Shown: one piece after another, positions 45,101-64,000 of the stretch
How positions within the stretch are numbered: the first letter of the stretch is position 1
Layout of the letters: every line of letters starts with the position of its first letter
From: Tomocerus qinae
Taxonomy: Eukaryota; Arthropoda; Collembola; Entomobryomorpha; Tomoceridae
Direction of reading: 5' to 3'
Assembly: GCA_020055645.1 (NCBI GenBank)
Contig: CM034546.1
Location: 108,132,375 to 108,196,374 of the forward strand
DNA length: 64,000 nucleotides
Program-made: the position numbers and the translations under genes
The notes under the pieces: generated by a model
The model's input: the letters and a program-made list of their open reading frames with translations, nothing else
The model's database searches: none
Told to the model about the DNA's origin: nothing

Positions 45101-48100
45101 TTAATCCTTCGGTGTATTCCAACCCTCTGGTATCCATATACCAGTCTTACATAGGTAGTTAGCTCATAGGTAGTAGCCAGAACCCGTCTCTTTAAAAAAC
45201 AAAAAATCTTAGCTGTGGACGTTTTCTACGCCATGCGCATCTTTTTCTTCTCGCTCTCCTGCCGGCGGCGATAGCTCCCTTCCTCATAGTTCATTTGACG
45301 GTAGACAGGAACCGGTTCTCAAAAGCTCTCCAGCGTTACTGCGTGACCTTCCGAAGATAGCTACTCTAATTGACCTCAACCATGTCAGATGACCCAGTAG
45401 ATGACCTAAGGACTAAGGGGTAAGTAAAAATCATCGTAATACTGCAAAATTTTAAAAATAAATATTGAAGAGGCAGGGAATGACGTAGTCACCCACTTAC
45501 TATGTTGCCTCATCCGATGACGAGGTCACGGATTGATAGGCAGATGACGTGGTCACTGCTATTAAATATAAATAAATAAGCGTGTCAATATCTGACAATT
45601 GAAGTGCACATGTTTATCAAAATTTTTTGAACATTTATAGAAGGCAAGGAATGACTGTGTCATTTATCCTTATGCCTTTTCCGATGACGTAGTCACGGAT
45701 ATATAATAATATAATATTAATTTGAACCACTATACTAATAATATGATATATATTTTATTAAAAGGGTCAGTCATAAAGCAAAAATGGCCCCAAAGAAAAA
45801 TTCAGTTACACAACTTCGTAAGGAAGTGACTTCAATGAATGAAAACATTAAACAACATTCTGACGCATTACGGGCATTAAAAGATGTACCTACCCAAATA
45901 AATCAAGTTTTTGATCTCTTAAACAACATGAAAAATGGAAATGATGTTATTGTTGAGCAATCAGATGTCCTCGAAAATAATGCACAAGGAGAGTTTGATG
46001 ATCCTATTGCAAAGCTGATGTCGAAATCAACAGATTCGGAATGTAATACAATTTCTATCTTAAGATATTTTGTTGATTTTTTTGTCAGTCTAATTTACTC
46101 AAAATGTCTTTACGAAATTATATTTTGGGAATAGCCGCAGGCACCCCAGTTGATGAAGATCTTATTGAAATTCTTAACATTACTCAGCCTATCTCAGAAT
46201 ATGGCACTGAAATAAATACGGATGTTGCGGAATCAGTCAACCGCTTGCACGCACAAAATAATCTGAAGAATAATATCGTTAAATTCAAGGAACAATTCAA
46301 GGTTCCATCAAATTGTAAAGCTCTGTCAGTCCCCCGGGTGAATACGGAAATTTGGCCATCTTTGCCGCAAAAAATACGACAAAATGATTTTGCCCAACAG
46401 CAACAGCAACAATATGTGTCAATGGCTGCCGTTGGAATGGCATTAATTGCAGAAAAGATATTTACATCTAAGGAACAGATGTCAAAATCTATGCGAGATG
46501 AACTTCTTAAATTATCAATGGAAACGTCATCTGTATTAGGATATCTGTCCCAAGATATAAATCAAAAGAGGAAACAGGATATCAAGCCTTCCCTCAATAG
46601 AGAATTCGTGGGGATATGTTCAGCAAAAATTCCTTCAACCGAATGGCTTTTTGGCGACAATATTTCTGATCTGCTTAAGTCCTCAAGGTCTACGGCCAAT
46701 ATTGTTCGGAATCCAAGTTATAAGTCAAACTTTCGGGGAAATCGTTTCTCTCCATATTTTAACGGGACTAAAAATAGGAATTTAAACTTTCGAAACCCCT
46801 CTCCTCTACAGAGGGGAGGGGGCCAATCCCGAGGAATGCAACGAGGGAATTTTACGAGACGAAGGACATATCATCCCAACAACCAATATCAAAGATAAAA
46901 GTACGGGCAGCTTCTTTATGTAATTTTTATTATAAATGGTATAATATTACTAATGATCCAGAAGTCTTAACAGCAATTATAGGTTATAAATTACCATTCA
47001 TTTTAGAGCCCCCACAACAAAACCAAGAACCAATAGAGGTAGAATATAGTAGTGTGGAAACAGGTCAAATTATTGATTGCCTGCAGCATTTGTTAGAAAT
47101 AGGAGCTATATCAATTGTAAGTCCATGTGAAGGACAGTTTATTTCTAGAATATTTGTAGTTCCTAAAAGTGACGGATCGGGCCGTCTTATTATTAATTTA
47201 AAAGATTTGAATAATTATATTAAAAGTCCTCATTTTAAAATGGAGGACTACAGGACTGTAAAGAAACTAATAACGAAGGGTTGCTTCATGGCAAAGATTG
47301 ATTTGCAAGATGCTTACCATTTAGTGCCGATTGCTAGGGAGGATAGAAAATATCTGCGATTTCGTTTTAAAGGAATATTATACGAATATTCTTGTTTGCC
47401 ATTCGGGCTGAGTTCGGCGCCCCGAATTTTTACAAAAATAATCAGGCCTGTAATAGCCAATTTAAGAAATAGAGGCTTTCCATCTGTGGCTTATTTAGAT
47501 GATTTACTGCTGTTGGAATATTCTAAAGTGGATTGCTTAAACAATATTCAAAACACGATCGACCTATTAAACCAGTTAGGTTTGGTAATTAATATCAAAA
47601 AGTCTGATTTAATCCCTAAAACAGAAATTAGTTATTTAGGCTTTATTTTCAACTCAGAAACAATGACGGTCGAATTACCAAATAAGAAAAAGGTTCGGCT
47701 TTTGTCACTATTAAAGTCTGAAATTAACAAAGTAGAGACGACTATAGAAGATGCAGCCATTTTAATTGGCAGTCTTATTGCAGCTGTCCCAGCTGTGTCA
47801 TATTCAATGATGTATACTAGACAAATGGAGATGGACAAATCCAACTGTTTGTTAAATTCTAATGGCAATTATAAAGCTAAACTTTTGTTTAGTAATGAAT
47901 CAAAAGTAGACATGGCTTGGTGGATAAATGCATTAGCAGAGGCCAAAAATTTAATTCGGTCAGACATATACGAACATGTTCTAGAGACCGATGCATCCAC
48001 TACAGGATGGGGTGCTGTATATCGAGGAAATATAACTCGTGGATTTTGGTCAAAGGAACAACAATCATTTCATATTAACACATTAGAAATTATTGCCGCG

Positions 48101-50706
48101 TTTAATGGGATAAGAGCATTTTTATCAGATGCCAGGAACTGTCAGGTGCTATTAAAAATGGATAGTACCGTAGGAATAGCTTATGTAAATCGATTTGGTG
48201 GCTGTAGGTCACCAGTAAACCACTTATATGCAAAGGATTTATGGAAATGGTGTCAGTTTAGAAACATCTGGATTTTTGCCACATATATTAATACAAAAGA
48301 TAATTTTCTGGCTGATGAGGCTTCTCGTCTTAGTATTGAGGAAAATGATTTCTCTCTAGATCAACATTCTTTTACCGAGATAACTAGGATTTTAGGAAAT
48401 CCTGTCATTGATCTTTTCGCGACACAACATACTACCAAATGTAGACGGTACTTTTCTTGGTATCCAGATCCTGAAAGTGAAGGTGTAGATGCTTTCACTC
48501 TTCAATGGAATGATTACTTTTATGCCTTTCCCCCATTTGCCTTAATAGGGCGTGTACTTAAAAAGATTTATGAAGAAAAGGCGACTGGTATTGTAGTCGT
48601 CCCTAATTGGGATACTCAGGCTTGGTATCCCATTTTTATTAAGTTGGCTGTTTCCAAAATAATAATTTTGAAAAGAGGAAAATTTAAACTAACATTTCCT
48701 TACAATAATAGACTCCATCCATTGTCGAAGACGTTGTCACTAGCAGTCGGAGTACTTTCGGGTTCGACATTGAGTTGACCGACAATTGTCAAAAACTTTT
48801 AAAAGCATCTTGTTCTGACGGTACATGGAAACAATATGAAGGTACTATAAAAAAGTGGGTAAGATATTGTAAAATTGTGAATCAAGATCCTTGGAAGCCT
48901 TCAATTAATTTAATTCTTGCTTTTTTGACGAGCTTGTATGATGAGGGATCAAGTTATGTTACAATTAATTCAGCTAGATCAGCATTATCGACAGTCCTAG
49001 GTCCACTTAACGGTGATACCATTGGTAATCATCCATTGGTTATTAGATTATTAAAAGGAGTAGGTCGACTCCGTCCTCCTCGATGTAAATATGATACGAC
49101 TTGGGATCCTAGTATAGTTTTAAATTTATTTTCAGTTTGGGCGGAAAACGATAAGTTAAATTTTAGAATGTTGTCAATGAAACTTGCATCATTACTTGCC
49201 CTCTGCTCAGGGCAAAGAGTACAAACTTTAGCCAAAATTCAATTAAAGGAAGTAGTATTTTCAAAAGATACTGTAACGATTAATATTTCAAGTCGCTTAA
49301 AAGCTTCTAAACCTGGAAAAGGGCTTCAACTAAATTTTAAAAAGTTTACAAACCCCCTTATATGCGTTGTTAATTGTATGTCAGTTTATGTCAATATGTC
49401 TGCTCCTCTTAGAAAAGGAGATAATCTTTTTATTACCACAAAAGCACCATATGGAGCTTCTAGCTCGCAGACAATTAGTAAGTGGCTTAAGAAAGTTCTG
49501 AGCTTAGCAGGAGTTAATACAAGTCAATTTTCTAGCCACAGCTTCCGTCATGCATCAACTTCTAAAGCGGAAGACAATGGTGTTTCAATAAATACTATAT
49601 TTAAATCTGCGGGTTGGACAGAAAATTCGCGAGTATTTGCGAAATTCTATAGACGTCCAATTGTTGAAGAAGGAAAGTATGCAACTTCGATATTGTCTTC
49701 TCTCAAATAGCAATTTTAAAGGATTATGCTTAACATTTGAATTAACTTATAATTAGATGGTTAAGAATTAATTTCCAAGATGCATTATGCAATGAAATGA
49801 TTTATAATTTATACTTTATCCATGTGAAATAAATATGTCCATTTGTAAAAGAAATTTCATCCTAAATATTGTGTTGCTAATGGTATAATTTGAATTATTC
49901 TATTCTTGCGCTTAGAAATTACATTTTGCATTATCACTTGCTTACATCCAGGTACCAATCTCTGACTTTTTTGTTTTAAACAACTACCTATGTAAGACTG
50001 GTATATGGATACCAGAGGGTTGGAATACACCGAAGGATTAATTGAAAATTATTCGAGCCCCACCCGAAGGGTGGGGCGACGGATAATTGTAATTATCCGA
50101 GGTGTATGGAGACCCGAAGGTATCCAGTTCCCACCCATTCCCACCCTTAAATTATTCGGAAAAAGTCATCGATTTAGGTTTTTGGACTATGAGGAAGGGA
50201 GCTATCGCCGCCGGCAGGAGAGCGAGAAGAAAAAGATGCGCATGGCGTAGAAAACGTCCACAGCTAAGATTTTTTGTTTTTTAAAGAGACGGGTTCTGGC
50301 TACTACCTATGAGCTAACTACCTATGTAAGACTGGTATATGGATACCTTCGGGTCTCCATACACCTCGGATAATTACAATTATCCGTCGCCCCACCCTTC
50401 GGGTGGGGCTCGAATAATTTTCAATTATTCCATAATTTAATTTTAATGCATTTCTTATGGTATAGTAAAAAAATAAAATATTTTTGTCAAATTACTTTTG
50501 TTTTCGGAGTTGATGGAAATTAGTACATCTTTTTGAAAGTATAATGATTGTGAGGTAATCCAATCTATTTGTGACGTAGCAGATGAGATGGTACTAGTAG
50601 TAGTAAGTGACAGAATTACTTGTACTAGGATGTTTGAGATAAAAATATTATTATAGCAAAACAATTTGTTGCTGAAACATTTCATGAAATGGTTATTATG
50701 AGACAT
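42117..50706 (-). CDS. Ionotropic receptor (IR), split by a DIRS element in intron 1
   Basis: IRs are variant glutamate-receptor channels used in arthropod chemosensation. Minus-strand exons: 50706-50496 (signal peptide), 45083-44914, 44756-44334, 44276-44155, 44008-43844, 43776-~43550, 43509-42920 and 42372-42117, roughly 720 residues. Phases agree at all junctions except exon 6/7. Domains: extracellular N-terminus; S1 with GGYDIHQFWFLRDSLNFT and NDDADLSIA; M1 in FLPFGPCVWISLVVVWIFAA; pore region DNVIFWVISSVMSKG; M3 in MMLSLLTMTVYTSVVTSYLS; S2; M4 in VIVPVVILTIGKLLSILI; short cytoplasmic tail. At exon 6/7 the best donor (AAAG|GTTACA) and acceptor (TTTACAG|AGC) disagree by phase; either a weak in-phase donor is used or the gene carries a frameshift. 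Ligand unknown; a divergent tuning IR rather than a co-receptor is inferred. Confidence 0.8.
45103..45303 (+). repeat. DIRS left inverted terminal repeat
   Basis: Contains CTGGTATCCATATACCAGTC, TACATAGGTAGTTAGCTC, an AAAAAACAAAAAATCTTAGC segment and GCCGGCGGCGATAGCTCCC. The same blocks appear in reverse complement at 50,189-50,350. Confidence 0.85.
45784..46898 (+). CDS. DIRS gag-like ORF, two overlapping frames
   Basis: The first frame (45784-46134, real ATG in AAAATGGCC) encodes 116 residues, charged, with a short coiled-coil-like region (VTSMNENIKQHSDALRALKD). A second frame (46104-46898, 264 residues) overlaps it by 31 nt. It has a helical middle with a Gln run (NDFAQQQQQQYVS), and a C-terminus rich in Arg, Gly and Asn (RNLNFRNPSPLQRGGGQSRG), consistent with nucleic-acid binding. 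In DIRS elements the first protein is gag-like, so the two frames probably form one product by splicing or frameshifting, or the overlap marks a mutation. No zinc knuckle is visible. Confidence 0.65.
46892..48778 (+). CDS. DIRS reverse transcriptase - RNase H - methyltransferase-like ORF
   Basis: The frame is open from the overlap with the gag-like ORF; an internal alternative start is near 47054. RT motifs: VVPKSDGSGRLIINLKDLN, AKIDLQDAYHLVPI (motif A), LPFGLSSAPRIFTKI (motif B), and the catalytic YLDD at 47492-47503. RNase H follows: LETDASTTGWGAVY (first Asp), NTLEIIAAFNGI (Glu), MDSTVGIAYVN (Asp) and FLADEASR (Asp). The last ~120 residues (VIDLFATQHT, FSWYPDPESEGVDAF, YAFPPFALI, VVPNWDTQAWYP) match the DAM/methyltransferase-like region typical of DIRS elements. 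The stop overlaps the start of the recombinase frame by 4 nt. Confidence 0.92.
   Translation, partial: KIKVRAASLCNFYYKWYNITNDPEVLTAIIGYKLPFILEPPQQNQEPIEVEYSSVETGQIIDCLQHLLEIGAISIVSPCEGQFISRIFVVPKSDGSGRLIINLKDLNNYIKSPHFKMEDYRTVKKLITKGCFMAKIDLQDAYHLVPIAREDRKYLRFRFKGILYEYSCLPFGLSSAPRIFTKIIRPVIANLRNRGFPSVAYLDDLLLLEYSKVDCLNNIQNTIDLLNQLGLVINIKKSDLIPKTEISYLGFIFNSETMTVELPNKKKVRLLSLLKSEINKVETTIEDAAILIGSLIAAVPAVSYSMMYTRQMEMDKSNCLLNSNGNYKAKLLFSNESKVDMAWWINALAEAKNLIRSDIYEHVLETDASTTGWGAVYRGNITRGFWSKEQQSFHINTLEIIAAFNGIRAFLSDARNCQVLLKMDSTVGIAYVNRFGGCRSPVNHLYAKDLWKWCQFRNIWIFATYINTKDNFLADEASRLSIEENDFSLDQHSFTEITRILGNPVIDLFATQHTTKCRRYFSWYPDPESEGVDAFTLQWNDYFYAFPPFALIGRVLKKIYEEKATGIVVVPNWDTQAWYPIFIKLAVSKIIILKRGKFKLTFPYNNRLHPLSKTLSLAVGVLSGSTLS
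48775..49710 (+). CDS. DIRS tyrosine recombinase
   Basis: An about 311-codon frame overlapping the RT stop; no ATG is at the overlap, so translation probably couples or reinitiates. The N-terminal SAM-like DNA-binding half (SDGTWKQYEGTIKKWVRYC) precedes the catalytic domain. The conserved tetrad is present: Arg in LALCSGQRVQTLAKIQ, the HxxR pair in SSHSFRHASTSKA, and Tyr in SRVFAKFYRRP. The protein would integrate a circular DNA intermediate without target duplication. No disruption seen. Confidence 0.92.
   Translation: MTDNCQKLLKASCSDGTWKQYEGTIKKWVRYCKIVNQDPWKPSINLILAFLTSLYDEGSSYVTINSARSALSTVLGPLNGDTIGNHPLVIRLLKGVGRLRPPRCKYDTTWDPSIVLNLFSVWAENDKLNFRMLSMKLASLLALCSGQRVQTLAKIQLKEVVFSKDTVTINISSRLKASKPGKGLQLNFKKFTNPLICVVNCMSVYVNMSAPLRKGDNLFITTKAPYGASSSQTISKWLKKVLSLAGVNTSQFSSHSFRHASTSKAEDNGVSINTIFKSAGWTENSRVFAKFYRRPIVEEGKYATSILSSLK
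49983..50126. repeat. DIRS internal complementary region
   Basis: 49,983-50,042 is the reverse complement of the element's left end (AACTACCTATGTAAGACTGG through CACCGAAGGATTA). 50,038-50,126 is the reverse complement of its right end (TTGAAAATTATTCGAGCCCC onward). The two parts meet at ATTAATTG, which models the joined ends of the circular replication intermediate. Confidence 0.85.
50189..50427. repeat. DIRS right inverted terminal repeat
   Basis: 50,189-50,350 is the complement of the left terminal repeat. 50,338-50,427 is complementary to the second half of the internal complementary region and ends TTTTCAATTA at the junction with receptor intron sequence. Confidence 0.8.
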
Positions 50707-56466: not shown

Positions 56467-56805
56467 CGACCTCAGAGTAGGCGAGATTACCCGCCTAATT
56501 TAAGCATATTAATAAGCGGAGGAAAAGAAACTAACAAGGATTCCCTTAGTAACGGCGAGCGAAAAGGGAAGAGCCCAGCGCTGAATCTAATGTCCCCCGG
56601 GCATTAAGACATGTGGCGTTTGGGACGAAACATTGCCTGTGCAGAATGATCATCCAAGTCCCTCTTGAACGGGGCCATTACCCATGGAGGTGCTAGGCCC
56701 GTACGATGATTTTATTGTGCAGTGCGTTTCGTCCGTAGAGTCGGGTTGCTTGGGAGTGCAGCCCAAATCAGGTGGTAAACTCCATCTAAGGCTAAATATG
56801 ACCAC

Positions 56806-56847
<42 letters not shown>

Positions 56848-57622
56848 AACTTTGAAGAGAGAGTTCAATAGTACGTGAAACCTCTCGGGGGTAAGCGGGC
56901 AGAACTTGCAAGTATTGGTGATGAGATTCAGGCTTAGTGTCGGTGACTGAGAGTATGAATTAAGTTGTTTGTTCGCAAATGATTGATGTGTACTCTTTGT
57001 TTTGCTGATGATGCGCCGCATTTCTTTTTACCATCCGGGTTGCATGCAACTGAGTTGGCAATTTAGGTGCTGGGTGTCTGCGTGTCCTTGTGGCTCGAGC
57101 CCTGGTTTTCCAATTGCTCATGCGGTTGTTGAAAGCGAACAGGCGTTTGTCGCGGTCAAAGTTATTCACGAGTAGGGTTTGTGTAGTGCATGGATGGGTA
57201 ACCATAGTGTATTGTACCGACTGATTGTCAGTGAGTGATTTTTGGCTCTGTTCAGTATTGCAATCTAAAGCATGCGTGGTCTGCCTGTCCCGTCTTGAAA
57301 CACGGACCAAGGAGTCTAACATGTGCGCTAGTCATTGGGAATGTAAACCCAAAGGCGGAATGAAAGTAAAGATTCGATTGCGAATTTGAGGAGAGATCAT
57401 GGCTTTTGGCTGGTATTCTGTAAAGTTTACTGGTGAAAGTATGCGCATCTCCTGGACGTCTATACCTCTGAAGGTGGGGCGTACCTAGAGCGTACACGTT
57501 GGGACCCGAAAGATGGTGAACTATGCCTGGTCAGGACGAAGTCAGGGGAAACTCTGATGGAGGTTCGTAGCGATTCTGACGTGCAAATCGATCGTCGGAA
57601 CTGGGTATAGGGGCGAAAGACT

Positions 57623-57675
<53 letters not shown>

Positions 57676-57956
57676 CGCTTGTACCAGTCTCATCCGGTAA
57701 AGCGAATGATTAGAGGCCTTGGGGCCGAAACGACCTCAACCTATTCTCAAACTTTAAATGGGTGAGAAGTCAGGCTTGCTTGATTGAAGCTCTGACAATG
57801 GATGGTGAGTGCCAAGTGGGCCACTCTTGGTAAGCAGGACTGGCGCTGTGGGATGAACCAAACGTTGGGTTAAGGCGCCCGAATCGACGCTCATGAGATC
57901 CCATAAAAGGCGTTGGTTGCTTAAGACAGCAGGACGGTGGCCATGGAAGTCGGAAT

Positions 57957-57994
<38 letters not shown>

Positions 57995-58929
57995 CTAGCC
58001 CTGAAAATGGATGGCGCTGAAGCGTCGTGCCTATACCCAACCGTTGAGTCACAGAGGTATGCTTGTCATATCCGCGAGGACTCAACGAGTAGGAGGGTCG
58101 TGGTGGTGTGCGTAGAAGGGTCTGGGCGTGGGCCTACCTGGAGCCGCCATCAGTGCAGATCTTGGTGGTAGTAGCAAATACTTTGGAGAGGCCCCGAAGG
58201 ACCGATGTGGAGAAGGGTTTCGTGTGAACAGCCGTTGAACACGAGTCAGTCGATCCTAAACCCGACGAGAAGTCGGTATCACTGTAAGGGAGTTATATCA
58301 TATACATGGATCCCTACTGTGATTAGGTGAAAGGGAATCTGGTTTCAATTCCAGAACCCGGTGACGGAACCGCTCTTTTCGACACATTCCTTGTGGATGT
58401 GTTGTCGGGGTAACCCAAAAAGACCCGGAGATGCCGTCAGAACCCCCAGGAAGAGTTTTCTTTTCTGCATGAGCAATTAAGCGCCCTGGAATTCCTTCAC
58501 GGAGAGATAGGGTCAAGATTGCGAAGAGCGCCGCAGTTATTGTGGCGTCTGGGGTGTTTTGCCGGACCTTGAAAATCCGGGAGAGGGACACGGGAGCGTC
58601 GCACCGGCTCGTACCCATATCCGCAGCAGGTCTCCGAGGTGAGCAGCCTCTGGTCGATAGAACAATGTAGGTAAGGGAAGTCGGCAAATCGGATCCGTAA
58701 CTTCGGGAAAAGGATTGGCTCTGAGGATCGGGGCGATCGGGCCGGATCAGGAAATGGTGTGTGCTCACGTGCTGGGCCTGGACAAGACTTTCGGGTTGAG
58801 TTCGGTCCCTTGCCGCGGCCTACTATGGATTGGTTCGGCTATGAAAGCCAGTGGAAGTAGCAATATGACTGCTGGGTCAACTTTCTTCGGTCTCCATTAA
58901 ACGATTAACTCAGAACTGGCACGGACCGG

Positions 58930-58961
<32 letters not shown>

Positions 58962-59077
58962 CGCGATGGCTCTTGCGGGTGATGACGCGATGTGATTTCT
59001 GCCCAGTGCTTTGAATGTCAAAGTGAAGAAATTCAACCAAGCGCAAGTTAACGGCGGGAGTAACTATGACTTTCTTA
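56467..59077 (+). rRNA. 28S ribosomal RNA, 5' part (interrupted)
   Basis: Starts CGACCTCAGAGTAGGCGAGA and runs to the R2 site, AACTATGACTTTCTTA. Just before the break the normally near-invariant CGCGGGTAAACGGC reads CGCAAGTTAACGGC, and GACTCTCTTA reads GACTTTCTTA, so the last ~40 nt have decayed. Elsewhere (for example GACCCGAAAGATGGTGAACT, TGCAGATCTTGGTGGTAGTA) the sequence is conventional. Confidence 0.95.
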
Positions 59078-60090
59078 CGGGTGAAAAACAAGGAGTATTG
59101 CACCTACCGAAATCCACGCCTAAAGCATTCTTTTATGCAAATAAAGCTGGATTAGGTATTCTATCTTTACGTGCAGCTATTCCCCACATGATAGTCCAGA
59201 GGTTTGGCCGCATGAAAGTGTCAGATAGTACACTTGCTCGCGCAGCATTTAACAGCAAAGTTATACAAGATAAAATTTCTGGTGCAAAGCGGGCCCTAAT
59301 AAGACACGAAGGCAGGCTCATTGACAGTAGGGAAGAGGTGATTAAATATCACCGTGAACTACTGTTTCAAATGGTCGATGGCAAGGCCTTGGAGGAGTTT
59401 AATGGAGTTCCTTGTGCACATGGCTGGATAAGCGATGGCACAAAAAAGATGAGTGGTCAGGTTTATATAGAGTCTCTCAAAATTAGAATCAATGCGTTGC
59501 CAACCCTTGCTAGACGTGCGAGGGGTAAAACCATGGCAAGAGAGTGCTCGGCGGGGTGCAGTAGACCAGAAACCATTCATCATGTGTTACAAGTTTGTCC
59601 GAGGACGCATGACGCTAGAGTCAAACGCCATGACTCCGTAGCTGCATTATTATGTAACTACCTGGAGCAAACAAAAAATACAGTATACAAGGAACCCCAT
59701 ATAACTACTTCCGCTGGGCTACGAAAACCAGATATTTTGGCTGTTAATCAAGCAGGCACAGCACTCTACATCGATGTTCAAATTTGTGGGGAATGGCCTT
59801 TAAGAACTTATCACCGTAAGAAAGTTCAATATTATCGTAATAGTGATTTAGAGGAGTATGCTAGGACCCAAGGCGCATCAGCTGTACAGTGGACTACACT
59901 GATAATATCATACAGAGGCCTTGTATGCAAAGAGTCCTACGTAGGGTTAAAACCATTTGGAATTAATCGCGCCATGCTAACTTCTTTAGTGACACTGTCA
60001 CTAGAGAAAAGCACTTACATTTGGCATATTTTCCAAAGGTCTACGGCCCATGCGTGGTCTAGAAGGAAAAGACCTAGACCAACAATATAA
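59078..60090 (+). pseudogene. R2 protein C-terminal fragment (linker, CCHC, RLE endonuclease)
   Basis: The frame is open and fused upstream to translated 28S sequence (from 59,011), so it has no start of its own. It contains the conserved post-RT linker (FFYANKAGLGILSLRAAIPH), a CCHC zinc knuckle (CSAGC then IHHVLQVC), and the restriction-like endonuclease core PDILAV then ALYIDVQICG with the PD...D catalytic residues, plus downstream lysines. The reverse transcriptase and N-terminal DNA-binding parts are missing. About 337 codons of true R2 sequence, no internal stop, implying a young insertion. Confidence 0.9.
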
Positions 60091-60365
60091 GCCGGCTTCC
60101 TTAATTCCTTAATGATGTGCAAAGAAGGGTAGATCTGTAAAGATAAGAGGCCCGGAGCCTGATCAAGGGCACTTAGGAGAAGTGCGAATCTGCGCGGGGA
60201 TACTGTGGTCCCCGTTTGTCTAAAGGTAGCTCTCTTCAAATGTTGATTTGAGTGATTCCTAAGGCAAATAAAATTCCACGGACAAGAAAATTGTTGGCCG
60301 AATTCTGATTTTTACAAAACCCGGTTCTCGGGATCAGAGAGTGAGGAGTATTTTCCTTAATTTTT
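59078..60365 (+). mobile_element. 5'-truncated R2 retrotransposon at the canonical 28S site
   Basis: Upstream 28S stops at CTTTCTTA and downstream 28S resumes at TAGCCAAATGCC, exactly the R2 target (TTAAGG/TAGCC) with a few bases lost on the 5' side. Only the C-terminal third of the R2 protein and the 3' UTR (60,091-60,365, ending TTCCTTAATTTTT) remain. 5' truncation is the usual outcome of incomplete target-primed reverse transcription. Confidence 0.93.
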
Positions 60366-60423
<58 letters not shown>

Positions 60424-60424
60424 A

Positions 60425-60474
<50 letters not shown>

Positions 60475-60511
60475 GCCCATCGGCGGGGAAAGAAGACCCT
60501 GTTGAGCTTGA
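60366..60511 (+). rRNA. 28S ribosomal RNA fragment between two insertions
   Basis: TAGCCAAATGCCTCGTCATC through the R1 site region (CCCTATCTACTATCTAGCGA, uninterrupted) to AGAAGACCCTGTTGAGCTTG. The segment after GGGCTTGG reads GCCCATCGGCGGGG, unlike the usual CAAAATCAGCGGGG form, a further sign that this unit is degenerating. The following 28S sequence is not found in the window. Confidence 0.92.
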
Positions 60512-60987
60512 ATGGATGAGAGTGGTGCACTCATCATGGGTGAAAAAGCGAAATCGGCGAATAGATCTTCCTCTACTCTTGTGACCACAAACTTGAACGC
60601 ATTTCACTGCGGAGAGACTAGGGAGTTGTCAAAATGGGACTCCTAAGTCAATCCAAAGTAAAAATGATTTGAACGCATTACACTGCGGAGAGACCAGGGA
60701 GTTGTCAAAATGGGACTCCTAAGTCAATCCAAAGTAATAATGAACTGAACGCATTACACTGAGGAGAGACTAGGGAGTTGTCAAAATGGGACTCCTAAGT
60801 CAATCCAAAGTAAAAACTGAGTAATTCGTCCTGATGGTTGGGCGAATTATTCTTCTTCCATTGACACAGTCAATACTTTGGTCACAACAAAAGACCCGGT
60901 CATAGGGGTAGTGGGGATTTATTTCGCTAATTTTTATATGATTACCCAAAGTTGCCACCTAGACTCACTTTAAAGTTCGATTGGTAC
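60512..60987 (+). mobile_element. 476-bp insert at a second 28S site, with three 76-bp repeats
   Basis: Bounded by two copies of a 21-nt 28S segment (60,491-60,511 and 60,988-61,008, beginning AGAAGACCCTGTTGAGCTTG). Contains three tandem 76-bp units starting GAACGCAT at 60,595, 60,671 and 60,747, each with GGGAGTTGTCAAAATGGGAC. No protein frame. It is probably the 3' end of a truncated copy of the element that follows, or a short non-autonomous relative. Confidence 0.7.
60595..60816 (+). repeat. Three tandem 76-bp units in the 28S insert
   Basis: Units share ACTGCGGAGAGACTAGGGAG and CTCCTAAGTCAATCCAAAGT with only a few substitutions. Confidence 0.92.
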
Positions 60988-62006
60988 AGAAGACCCTGTT
61001 GAGCTTGACCCTGTATGCCCCGGTTACGCCGACTTGATCCTTCGGAAGTATTAAGTTACTTGTAACTTAAACTTTTCTGCTTGAGCTCCCTAAGGCTTGG
61101 ACGCCCTTCCAAGGTTGAAAAGTCTAAGAGAGTGAGGAGCACTGCAGGTAGTGTGGTGTCGGAGGTATTGGGCCGGACCTAGAAACTCCGGGAGAAGAAA
61201 CAGACTCTTGGGAAAGAAGCTCTTCGATAACGAGAGCTGACCCTGTGGAGACTGGCTCGACAAGGTTGGATGGAAAGGAGTAGCTTGACACATGACTAGT
61301 GCCATGTTTAGCTAGTCATGTCTCTAGCCATAACACCCTTCAAGTGGCCCCCGCTGTTAACACGCCAGCACGGTCGTGAACAGAATGTTATGGTGTGGGT
61401 ATTAATACCCAACTCCCGGGACGTCAAAGCATGGTACGTGCTTCCGGGAAGTCAAGTCAAGCTGCCGGGACTTAGTAGTGCCGGTAAGGAGTTAGCGATG
61501 TTATGCTGACTTCTGTTATGTATGATGATAAAATCTTCTAAACTAAGTGAAAGTAGGACCTCTCTCTTGACTACCTCTAAAAAAGGTGTAAGTAAAAGTC
61601 AGGATTTGTCCGAAATTAAAACGCCGAAGGTATTAGGCGTGGCGTAATGCACTTGGCAATAAGGGAAGTGCCCAATGAGTACCTATTGACCATGCTTGGG
61701 TTGCAGGAATTAGACAAATGTATTGTACATTGTGGCGAGTGTTCAGTAGCGCTGTATGCATATTGGGCTATGTTGCGCGAAAAACTCCTCTCCTCGTCAC
61801 TCACCGGTCGTTCCTGTACCAACGTCCTCGGACGAAGGGAGTTTCTCTCTCTTCAACAGTAAGGAAACTTTCCCAAGCAAAACCCACCAAATGGCGAAAC
61901 CAGCATCTGGACCCTGTCCGGAGTACCTTCGAAAAAATGAGAGATATTGTCGGGAAAAAGGAAGGGGCTGGTTTTCGGTTCCAGAAAACACAAAAATCAA
62001 ACCACA

Positions 62007-62459
62007 ATGTCGATGTCTCGCGAATTAGTAAAAGGGATAAGTGCGGGCGCCTCTATAGGCCCCTTACTTGGCGGAGTGGTTTTGGATGATCAAAGTCTGA
62101 TCAAGTGTCCTTTTTGTGAAAAAGGATACAAAAACCTGCGTGGTTTGCAAACCCACAAAGGTATGATCCACAAAGGAATGAATGATGACCTAGTGGATCC
62201 TCCGAAAAACATGAGTGGATCGCCTAAATTCACTCGGTGGTCTGAGGAGGAATTGACAATGCTAGCCAAGATCGATTATGAAGTTAGTTCTCTTATCCGG
62301 AACCGGAACGTGGTGATCCACCAACGTTTCAGGGACATGGGTAGTTCAAGAACTATCGAAGCGGTCAGGACCATTGTCAGGGCAAGTAAATCGGGTCGTT
62401 ACGCTACCATCAGAGCCCAACACTTCCAGAAATGGGACGAGGCAAAGGGGAAAAGGTAA
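62007..62459 (+). CDS. R2-type protein N-terminus: zinc finger and Myb domain
   Basis: ATG at 62007 (upstream in-frame codons exist but lack an ATG). One C2H2 finger, CPFCEKGYKNLRGLQTHK...H, then a Myb-like motif starting RWSEEELTMLAKIDYEV, the pair that positions R2 proteins on 28S DNA. Only one finger is seen, as in the R2-D clade. The frame stops at 62459 while the protein sequence appears to continue one frame over from 62432 (KVMRKETPVGAESNTRV, then VPINQWSVGWTRKK) to 62830. Confidence 0.75.
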   Translation: MSMSRELVKGISAGASIGPLLGGVVLDDQSLIKCPFCEKGYKNLRGLQTHKGMIHKGMNDDLVDPPKNMSGSPKFTRWSEEELTMLAKIDYEVSSLIRNRNVVIHQRFRDMGSSRTIEAVRTIVRASKSGRYATIRAQHFQKWDEAKGKR

Positions 62460-62830
62460 TGCGCAAAGAAACTCCTGTAGGAGCCGAAAGCAATACCCGC
62501 GTAACGACGAACAATGCGGTGGTGACGGAGGAGATCAGGTGGCCCCTGATTCCCCAGAACCTGGCTGATGGAGTAGCTGAAGGAGTGTCGGAAAGAACCC
62601 GGAAGGTGCCCATCAACCAATGGAGTGTAGGATGGACGCGGAAGAAAGTGGCTAATGTAAGTTTGTCCCCGGACAAGTCTCAGAGCCAATCCGACGCAAA
62701 CAAGGGAGAAACGAGTACTACTCTAGAGGACGTACTCAAAGAGCTTCTGTCCAAAAAATACAGAAAGGGGGATTTTGCGAAGGAATTGTTGACCAGATGG
62801 TTGAAGTTGCTATCGCGGAGTGTGACATAG
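62432..62830 (+). pseudogene. R2-type protein, linker segment in a shifted frame
   Basis: Overlaps the upstream frame by 28 nt and contains hydrophilic linker sequence ending in TTLEDVLKELLSKKY. The stop at 62830 lies inside the next frame, which is open from before 62,760. Two frame changes in the same direction within 350 nt suggest a damaged copy. Confidence 0.6.
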
Positions 62831-64000
62831 ATGTCGAACTAAACTCCTACTTTGAAAAGTGGGGAGCATCCTACGAGAAAAAGAAGAGGAAGGTTCGGAA
62901 GCCAGCTTCTGACCAACCTCGAAATGTTCTCACAGGAAGACAGTTGCGCCGGTTAATGTACAAGCGCCAAAGAGAGGCATGGAAATGTAACCGAGCAAAA
63001 CTGGCCCGAGACATCTTGAATGACAACCTCCACTCAAAGGGACGACCCGATGAGATCGATGGCTTCTTTGAACACTGGAATAGCACCTTTGTGAAGAGTA
63101 CCTCTGAAACGGACACTAGTAACATGAGTAAGACCCAGGAGGAGTATAATGTGTGGCTTCCTGTAAGCACTGACGAAATTAAGAGTGCGCTTAGTTCGAC
63201 AGGTGCTAGGACAAGCAACGGACCAGATGGGATCCCTGTAAAGGACCTGAAAGGAAGTCCGGTGCGAATCCTACAAAAACTGATGAACTTGATCATATAC
63301 AGTGGGAAAATTCCTGCGTGCATGAAAAAGTCCAATACAGTTTTCATCCCCAAAAAGGATGAATGTGTCCAACCTACTGACTTCAGACCAATTTCGATTA
63401 CTTCCACCTTCATGAGACTATTTCACAAAATCTTGGCAAGGAGAATCGTTTCGAAGGCAAAATTCGATTACAGACAAAAGGCTTTCCTCCCAATAGATGG
63501 TTGCGCTGAGAACATTGTTCTTTTAGAGGCGGTGATTCGGGAAGCAAGAAGGCAAACTTCTTCGCTCTATACAGCCACTCTGGACATGCGCAACGCTTAT
63601 GGGTCGGTTAACCATGAAGCTGTGATCAAAGCCCTAGAATGCAACGGTGCATGCCCTGCATTAGTGGAATACGTCTCTGACTTGTATAAAGAGTTCTACA
63701 CAACGATTGTGGATCATGGTTCGGAATGTCAAATAAAGGTAGAGAGAGGTGTTCTCCAAGGAGATCCACTCTCGCCTGTCCTGTTCAATATGGTAATAGA
63801 TCAGCTCCTTCGGAAAATTCCGGACGAGGTTGGCTTCCCGCTAACAGTATCTACGAAAGTGAACGGACAAGCCTTTGCCGACGATTTGAACCTAATGTCC
63901 CAATCTGCGGTAGGCTTGCATACGAGCCTTAGAATCATCGGCGAAACAGGTGCTCCTTGGGGGTTAACGTTCAACGCAAAAAAGTGTAGTTATCTAGCGT
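62765..64000 (+). CDS. R2-type reverse transcriptase (runs off the window)
   Basis: Open without a stop to the window edge, over 400 codons. Landmarks: TGARTSNGPDGIPVKDL (finger motif), NTVFIPKKDE and DFRPISITSTFMRLFHKILA (typical of R2), motif A LDMRNAYGSVNHEA, motif B RGVLQGDPLSPVLFNMVID, motif C FADD in place of the common YADD, and WGLTFNAKKCSYLA. The order and spacing match R2 rather than R1. Catalytic aspartates are all present. The CCHC and endonuclease parts would lie beyond 64,000. Confidence 0.9.

Follow-up and report, generated by a model that had tools for sequence, protein, structure and literature searches.

The ribosomal DNA unit and its insertions

The stretch of Tomocerus qinae DNA analysed here (the window; 64,000 nt, contig CM034546.1, called C1 below, positions 108132375-108196374, in an assembly of 334 Mb and 115 contigs) closes in one ribosomal DNA (rDNA) unit, in which Rfam finds the 18S, 5.8S and 28S genes, the 28S being broken in two places (Table 1). 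The first break lies at the canonical target site of R2 retrotransposons and is occupied by a truncated R2, called X. At the second there follow one another a segment called A, a 21-nt repeat of 28S, and B, an R2-type retrotransposon whose junction with the 28S gene is the subject of this report. A 5,000-N gap begins directly after the window end (position 64000), so the contig cannot be extended into the 3' untranslated region (UTR) of B, and the end of the window is the limit of the assembly.

The distance from the R2 nick (AAGG/TAGCC, the slash marking the nick) to the second break is 146 nt, given as about 145 nt in an earlier reading of this DNA made without database searches (the sequence-only reading). 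The Rfam large subunit rRNA (LSU) match covers 60366-60560 and its consensus reads GAGCUUGA followed by CUCUAG, while the window leaves that consensus immediately past GAGCTTGA, where CUCUAG is the expected continuation. The 21-nt repeat, AGAAGACCCTGTTGAGCTTGA, is present in two copies spaced by 497 nt, the first being true 28S according to the LSU alignment. Both the repeat and the 476-nt insert that it encloses, with its three 76-nt repeats, are as the sequence-only reading described them.

That reading had also placed a canonical R2 in the same 28S gene. This is X, a 5'-truncated copy whose protein matches the Protein Data Bank (PDB) entry 8gh6 (1.4e-46) and shares 53% amino acid (aa) identity over 332 aa with element C, a full-length relative found elsewhere in the genome; the lineages of X and C coexist with B. 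The 3'UTR of X can be aligned with that of C, and its T-rich 3' end abuts TAGCCAAATGCC at the R2 nick. The last 28S bases before X are CTTACGG, where other copies have CTTAAGG. The assembled parts of X and B do not overlap.

Table 1. Features of the rDNA unit in the window, with the possible duplication and the coding parts of B
Feature	Position	Strand	Basis
28S rRNA gene up to the canonical R2 site	56490..59080	+	Rfam LSU; sequence
X, R2 reduced by 5' truncation to its C-terminal region and 3'UTR, at the canonical site	59081..60365	+	8gh6 match; likeness to C; 5' junction by eye
28S between the R2 nick (TAGCC) and GAGCTTGA, 146 nt; may be a long target duplication	60366..60511	+	Rfam LSU alignment; length
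First 21-nt copy, part of the 28S gene	60491..60511	+	sequence
A, 476 nt, with a relative in the 5'UTR of C	60512..60987	+	sequence comparison
Three 76-nt direct repeats in A	60593..60820	+	sequence; three-locus comparison
Second 21-nt 28S copy, between A and B	60988..61008	+	sequence
B, 5'UTR	61009..61946	+	start from 21-nt copy, end from first finger-bearing open reading frame (ORF)
Diverged 28S-derived stretch in the 5'UTR of B	61072..61195	+	blastn
Mosaic patch, two haplotypes among the three A-B loci	61302..61497	+	three-way alignment
B, frame with single CCHH finger and Myb-like stretch	61947..62459	+	ORF; tblastn to C; three-copy alignment
B, middle coding part, another frame	62459..62830	+	ORF; three-copy alignment
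B, R2-type reverse transcriptase, open to the window end	62797..64000	+	Pfam RVT_1 3.1e-31; 8gh6 2e-57

A fixed junction in the 28S gene

Five copies of B, 96-100% identical in aa sequence, were found with its reverse transcriptase (RT) among the best 103 of 848 candidates, which were scored and on which all counts of B rest; two further R2 relatives, C at C2:18.39 Mb and one at C1:102935495, reach 42-43%, and the remainder at most 33%. Four of the five have an assembled 5' side, and in all four the insertion joins the 28S gene at one and the same nucleotide, which lies 146 nt beyond the R2 nick (+146), both in the form A-21 nt-B and in a truncated form. The composite A-21 nt-B is present on C1 (the window), at C3:21.60 Mb and at C2:60.36 Mb. 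The truncated copy, at C2:22.16 Mb, begins at the equivalent of window position 61793 and has no A; its junction is placed by the abutting match coordinates of B and the 28S core, not by reading the letters across the joint. The fifth copy, a fragment at C2:36.93 Mb, extends about 120 nt past the window end before running into Ns, and is outside the junction count, as only its other side, a gap, was read. Within this search, with the 5' context of the fifth copy unread, no B was seen at the canonical R2 site and none was shown elsewhere, in line with the site specificity supposed by the sequence-only reading.

The three A-B loci are almost identical. Their differences are the number of 76-nt repeats, the mosaic patch and, within the stretch of coding region that was read, six single-base indels plus one substitution. 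Such near-identity in all three points to one descended structure, spread or converted among rDNA units, rather than to three insertions, while the truncated copy at C2:22.16 Mb looks like an independent event; together they amount to about two independent events. The two-haplotype patch (61302-61497) between otherwise near-identical copies suggests gene conversion between B variants.

It is very improbable that misassembly or rDNA recombination made the junction, with no site preference involved: all five copies end in N gaps and the single-base indels differ between copies, but the same junction is found on C1, C2 and C3 with three lengths of A, and also beside the truncated B without A.

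The occupancy of the site was examined with a 19-nt core of the repeat, AAGACCCTGTTGAGCTTGA, so that the 28S copies counted at +146 are those containing it. The core has 12 matches in the assembly at up to one mismatch, versus none for its reversed control; nine belong to continuous 28S copies and three are the inner copies between A and B. All nine 28S copies are complete over the 146 nt that begin at the R2 nick (28S-flank search, best 40 of 167 candidates scored) and all nine leave the consensus at the same nucleotide, unlike uninterrupted 28S, which reads GAGCTTGACTCTAG. Beyond the core, three continue with A-21 nt-B, one with truncated B and five with a sequence called D (TTTCGACTC...), which differs little between them. 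D, read for at most 61 nt per locus, gives no Rfam family match over that length at E up to 10. Its copy at C4:11.98 Mb follows a partial 28S, and two of the five D copies have an empty R2 site upstream. In the form TTTCGACTCTTGC... it is seen after GAGCTTGA at loci L039-L042 and L014:5014-5050 (minus strand).

The uniform departure of nine out of nine copies, five of them into near-identical D and two of these below an empty R2 site, would also fit a special break after GAGCTTGA, with D the ordinary continuation of 28S (host spacer or a very common insertion) that B replaces in some units. The sarcin-ricin motif of the 28S 3' region, which has no match in the whole assembly at up to one mismatch, could be taken in the same sense. 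We consider this explanation unlikely: 28S is conserved at this point (consensus CUCUAG), D resembles no Rfam family, and the missing 3' part of 28S is most simply unassembled, as the absence of sarcin-ricin matches itself suggests. Each of the four rDNA loci read at length (C1, C3, C2:60.36 Mb and C2:18.39 Mb) runs into a 5,000-N gap beyond the +146 point.

Structure and family of element B

The RT of B finds its best PDB match in 8gh6, which we take to be the R2 of Bombyx mori, with 198 bits as compared with 142-146 bits for the other R2 entries. The frame 61947-62459 contains one C-x2-C-x12-H-x4-H motif, all Pfam C2H2 matches being below the cut-off; the single finger and the R2-type RT read from the sequence earlier (CCHH motif; 8gh6 2e-57) are both borne out. 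No Myb family is matched by Pfam in B, and its Myb-like stretch compares with 8gh6 at E 0.84, while the finger and Myb-like region together compare with C at 26% (tblastn, E 5e-4). All five copies are cut by N gaps ahead of the restriction-like endonuclease region. By the bit score of its RT and its single finger, B is probably an R2 retrotransposon nearest to lineage D, as this lineage is defined in PMC13188248. No relatives of its RT were found in IMG/VR and GTDB contigs.

The coding frame of B is broken in the window, and the six single-base indels of the coding part differ between the three A-B copies. A stop overlapping an ATG at 62457-62461 could be taken for a bicistronic arrangement; it was rejected because the indel near the end of the 61947-62459 frame is private to the window copy among the three, and the C3 copy has the finger part and the middle part in one frame. 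The diverged 28S-like stretch in the 5'UTR (88 of 126 columns, 70%, E 1e-13) corresponds to host 28S at 58460-58584, which puts its source 500-620 nt upstream of the R2 site.

Element C and segment A

C lies at C2:18.39 Mb on the minus strand and is a full-length R2 relative of 4,428 nt with one frame of 1147 aa. Its protein matches 8gh6 at 8e-143, the alignment reaching the C-terminal end, and like B it scores best against this entry among the R2 structures in the database. The RTs of B and C share 41% aa, and one finger is seen in C. The 3' end of C abuts TAGCCAAATGCC, the canonical R2 3' junction, while its 5' end follows 28S ...CCCTATCTA, 72 nt downstream of the R2 nick. These 72 nt of 28S are present on both sides of C with four differences, three of them at the nick, which makes them a 72-bp target duplication.

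Other R2-like sequences were also met. A third R2 relative, with 43% aa identity to the RT of B and a long open frame, is located at C1:102935495-102936589 (plus strand), at none of the 28S places listed. At C2:66126967-66127208 (minus strand) an R2-like 3' end is joined to 28S at the canonical nick and followed 146 nt later by D; it is 92% identical to X over the end of the 3'UTR and 28S, and is possibly a second C-type copy, its 5' side being unread.

Segment A is 476 nt long in the window, 565 nt at C3, where it has four 76-nt repeats, and 124 nt at C2:60.36 Mb. It matches the 5'UTR of C in blocks of 155 and 146 nt, 88-89% identical, or, with gaps allowed, over 308 nt at 78%, and the module in C, which opens with the first bases of A, begins about 120 nt inside the element. 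No match to A was found in the 3'UTR of C. Since its relative sits in the 5'UTR of a full-length element, A is most likely R2 sequence of 5'UTR type and not the 3' remnant of an upstream copy, and a 3'UTR remnant is disfavoured, though the weak likeness to the 3' end of X given below speaks for it. The sequence-only reading had taken A for the severely truncated upstream member of a tandem; with a relative in the 5'UTR of C, no match in its 3'UTR and A-21 nt-B forming one descended structure, this is unlikely.

Displaced second-strand cleavage or a new target

The explanation favoured here over a new target, and given an even chance, is that B keeps the first nick of R2 and has a displaced second-strand cut, with a 146-bp duplication as the outcome. 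The canonical R2 site would still be where B nicks the bottom strand and primes reverse transcription, and the second strand would be cut 146 nt downstream, so that 146 bp of 28S would be duplicated and an intact R2 target left upstream. In the window copy X would have inserted later into that target. A and the inner 21 nt may be additions to the 5' end of B: the 21 nt would represent upstream 28S retained on the 5' end of the RNA, while A would stem from an R2 5'UTR and have been attached through a template jump during formation of the 5' junction, the whole structure having spread afterwards among rDNA units. Displacement of the cut is favoured because C shows the same geometry at 72 nt in this very genome, and because A resembles the 5'UTR of C and no 3' end of B adjoins AGAAGACC. 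A long duplication requires intact R2 targets upstream of A-B, and such targets, also empty, are present at C3 and C2:60.36 Mb, while in the window the site holds X.

Several observations weigh against this explanation. The perfect 21-nt repeats that exactly bound A look like an ordinary target duplication and need a separate explanation, and A, near its end, weakly resembles the final 50 nt of the 3'UTR of X (34/50, E 0.13). The 3' junction of B is unassembled in all five copies, each of which runs into an N gap, and the long duplication of C is seen in one copy. Five of the nine 28S loci carry D at the junction nucleotide of B, so whatever sets the +146 point apart may have nothing to do with B. 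Finally, at the 5' ends of A, B and C no ribozyme of a hepatitis delta virus (HDV) family was found by Rfam at E up to 10, and a stricter HDV-like descriptor gave no matches in the three. A first, home-made descriptor had found a single match in A and another in C, where 200 shuffles gave means of 0.015 and 0.025, and nothing in B; these two matches were judged not convincing because their stems are almost only A/T and the P1 partners are not homologous. With no such ribozyme established, the 28S carry-over step is left without that support.

The first two of these observations speak for a true change of target, and so do the constancy of the 5' junction in B insertions and the fact that no copy of B turned up at the canonical site or was demonstrated elsewhere. 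Both nicks of B would then fall in the +125 to +146 region with a duplication of 20-21 bp, A being an earlier insertion and B one into its downstream duplicate. There are precedents, R8 and R9 being described as R2-superclade elements with a changed rDNA site (PMC5035012). We regard a change of target as a real but lesser possibility, as A matches a module of the 5'UTR of C and nothing in its 3'UTR, the three A-B loci are one descended structure, and at no locus does a 3' end of B adjoin AGAAGACC, the 12 core matches being fully accounted for by the nine continuous 28S copies and the three inner ones. That B is specifically a one-finger R2 of lineage D with a truly new 28S target near +125 to +146 is, in our opinion, somewhat doubtful. 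Of the family targeting a second 28S site that the sequence-only reading proposed, the recurrent junction away from the canonical site stands, by about two events, while the new target itself is placed below the displaced cut. That reading had left out a long target duplication with the bottom-strand nick at the R2 site, as seen here in C (72 nt) and described at 126 bp for R9 (PMC6895275).

Each outcome would have its own significance. Were the new target true, B would join R8 and R9 as a third case of rDNA retargeting in the R2 superclade, and to our knowledge as the first outside R2-A. The genome would hold it together with canonical and long-duplication R2s, its site being occupied in 9/9 assembled core-bearing 28S copies, and comparison of the finger and Myb-like part of B with that of C would show how one-finger R2s recognise DNA. 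R2 proteins are under development for gene insertion. If displaced second-strand cleavage holds, related R2s share the first nick and have their 5' junctions at 0 (X), 72 (C) and 146 nt (B), a natural series for what sets the position of the second cut, a part of target-primed reverse transcription that is described as little understood (PMC6895275).

Other sequences in the window and the assembly

In the window, three consecutive long open frames at 46104-49710, judged by eye and by their motifs, resemble a DIRS-type retrotransposon. Of the best 40 of the 167 candidates of the 28S-flank search, 30 share no more than a common stretch of 75-79 nt counted from the R2 nick; the one read (L043, C1:301440-301720) is a repeat outside rDNA whose positions 82-178 are some 97 nt of 28S, with the R2 target (AAGG/TAGCC) intact. 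In the first 10 kb of each of the 20 smallest contigs there is no DNA match to 18S, 28S, A, B, C, X or D, and one of them shows weak RT-like protein matches.

Comparison with known R2 elements

In its single CCHH finger and R2-type RT, and possibly in its Myb-like stretch, B is like the lineage D element of Bombyx mori. The two differ in the geometry of insertion, as a 2-bp stagger is described for the Bombyx R2 (PMC6895275), whereas the 5' junctions of B and C lie 146 and 72 nt downstream of the R2 site. No obvious description of a one-finger R2 at +146 was found in open-access titles and abstracts, which is not proof of absence. A shift of the R2 site by 11 bp is reported for a ctenophore (PMC13188248).

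A known parallel is R9 of the rotifer Adineta vaga, a member of the R2 superclade with a different 28S site and a 126-bp target duplication (PMC6895275, PMC12203849, PMC5035012), which is compared here with the possible 146-bp duplication of B by length and not by exact 28S position. R9 is described as an R2-A element with three fingers (PMC3581529), while one is seen in B and C, and for this reason B was not filed as R9.

A moved top-strand site combined with a canonical 3' junction is described for R2Gs and R2Bs of actinopterygian fishes (PMC5035012); there the 5' junction is 110-130 bp upstream and 28S is replaced, whereas in B and C it is downstream. Short 28S duplications of 13-28 nt at the 5' end are known from the R2s of earwig, silkmoth and jewel wasp and have been tied to RNAs retaining upstream 28S, the 22-bp duplication of the earwig element deriving from downstream of the site (PMC3774820). 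Unlike these, the 21 nt found here are set apart from the 28S gene by A.

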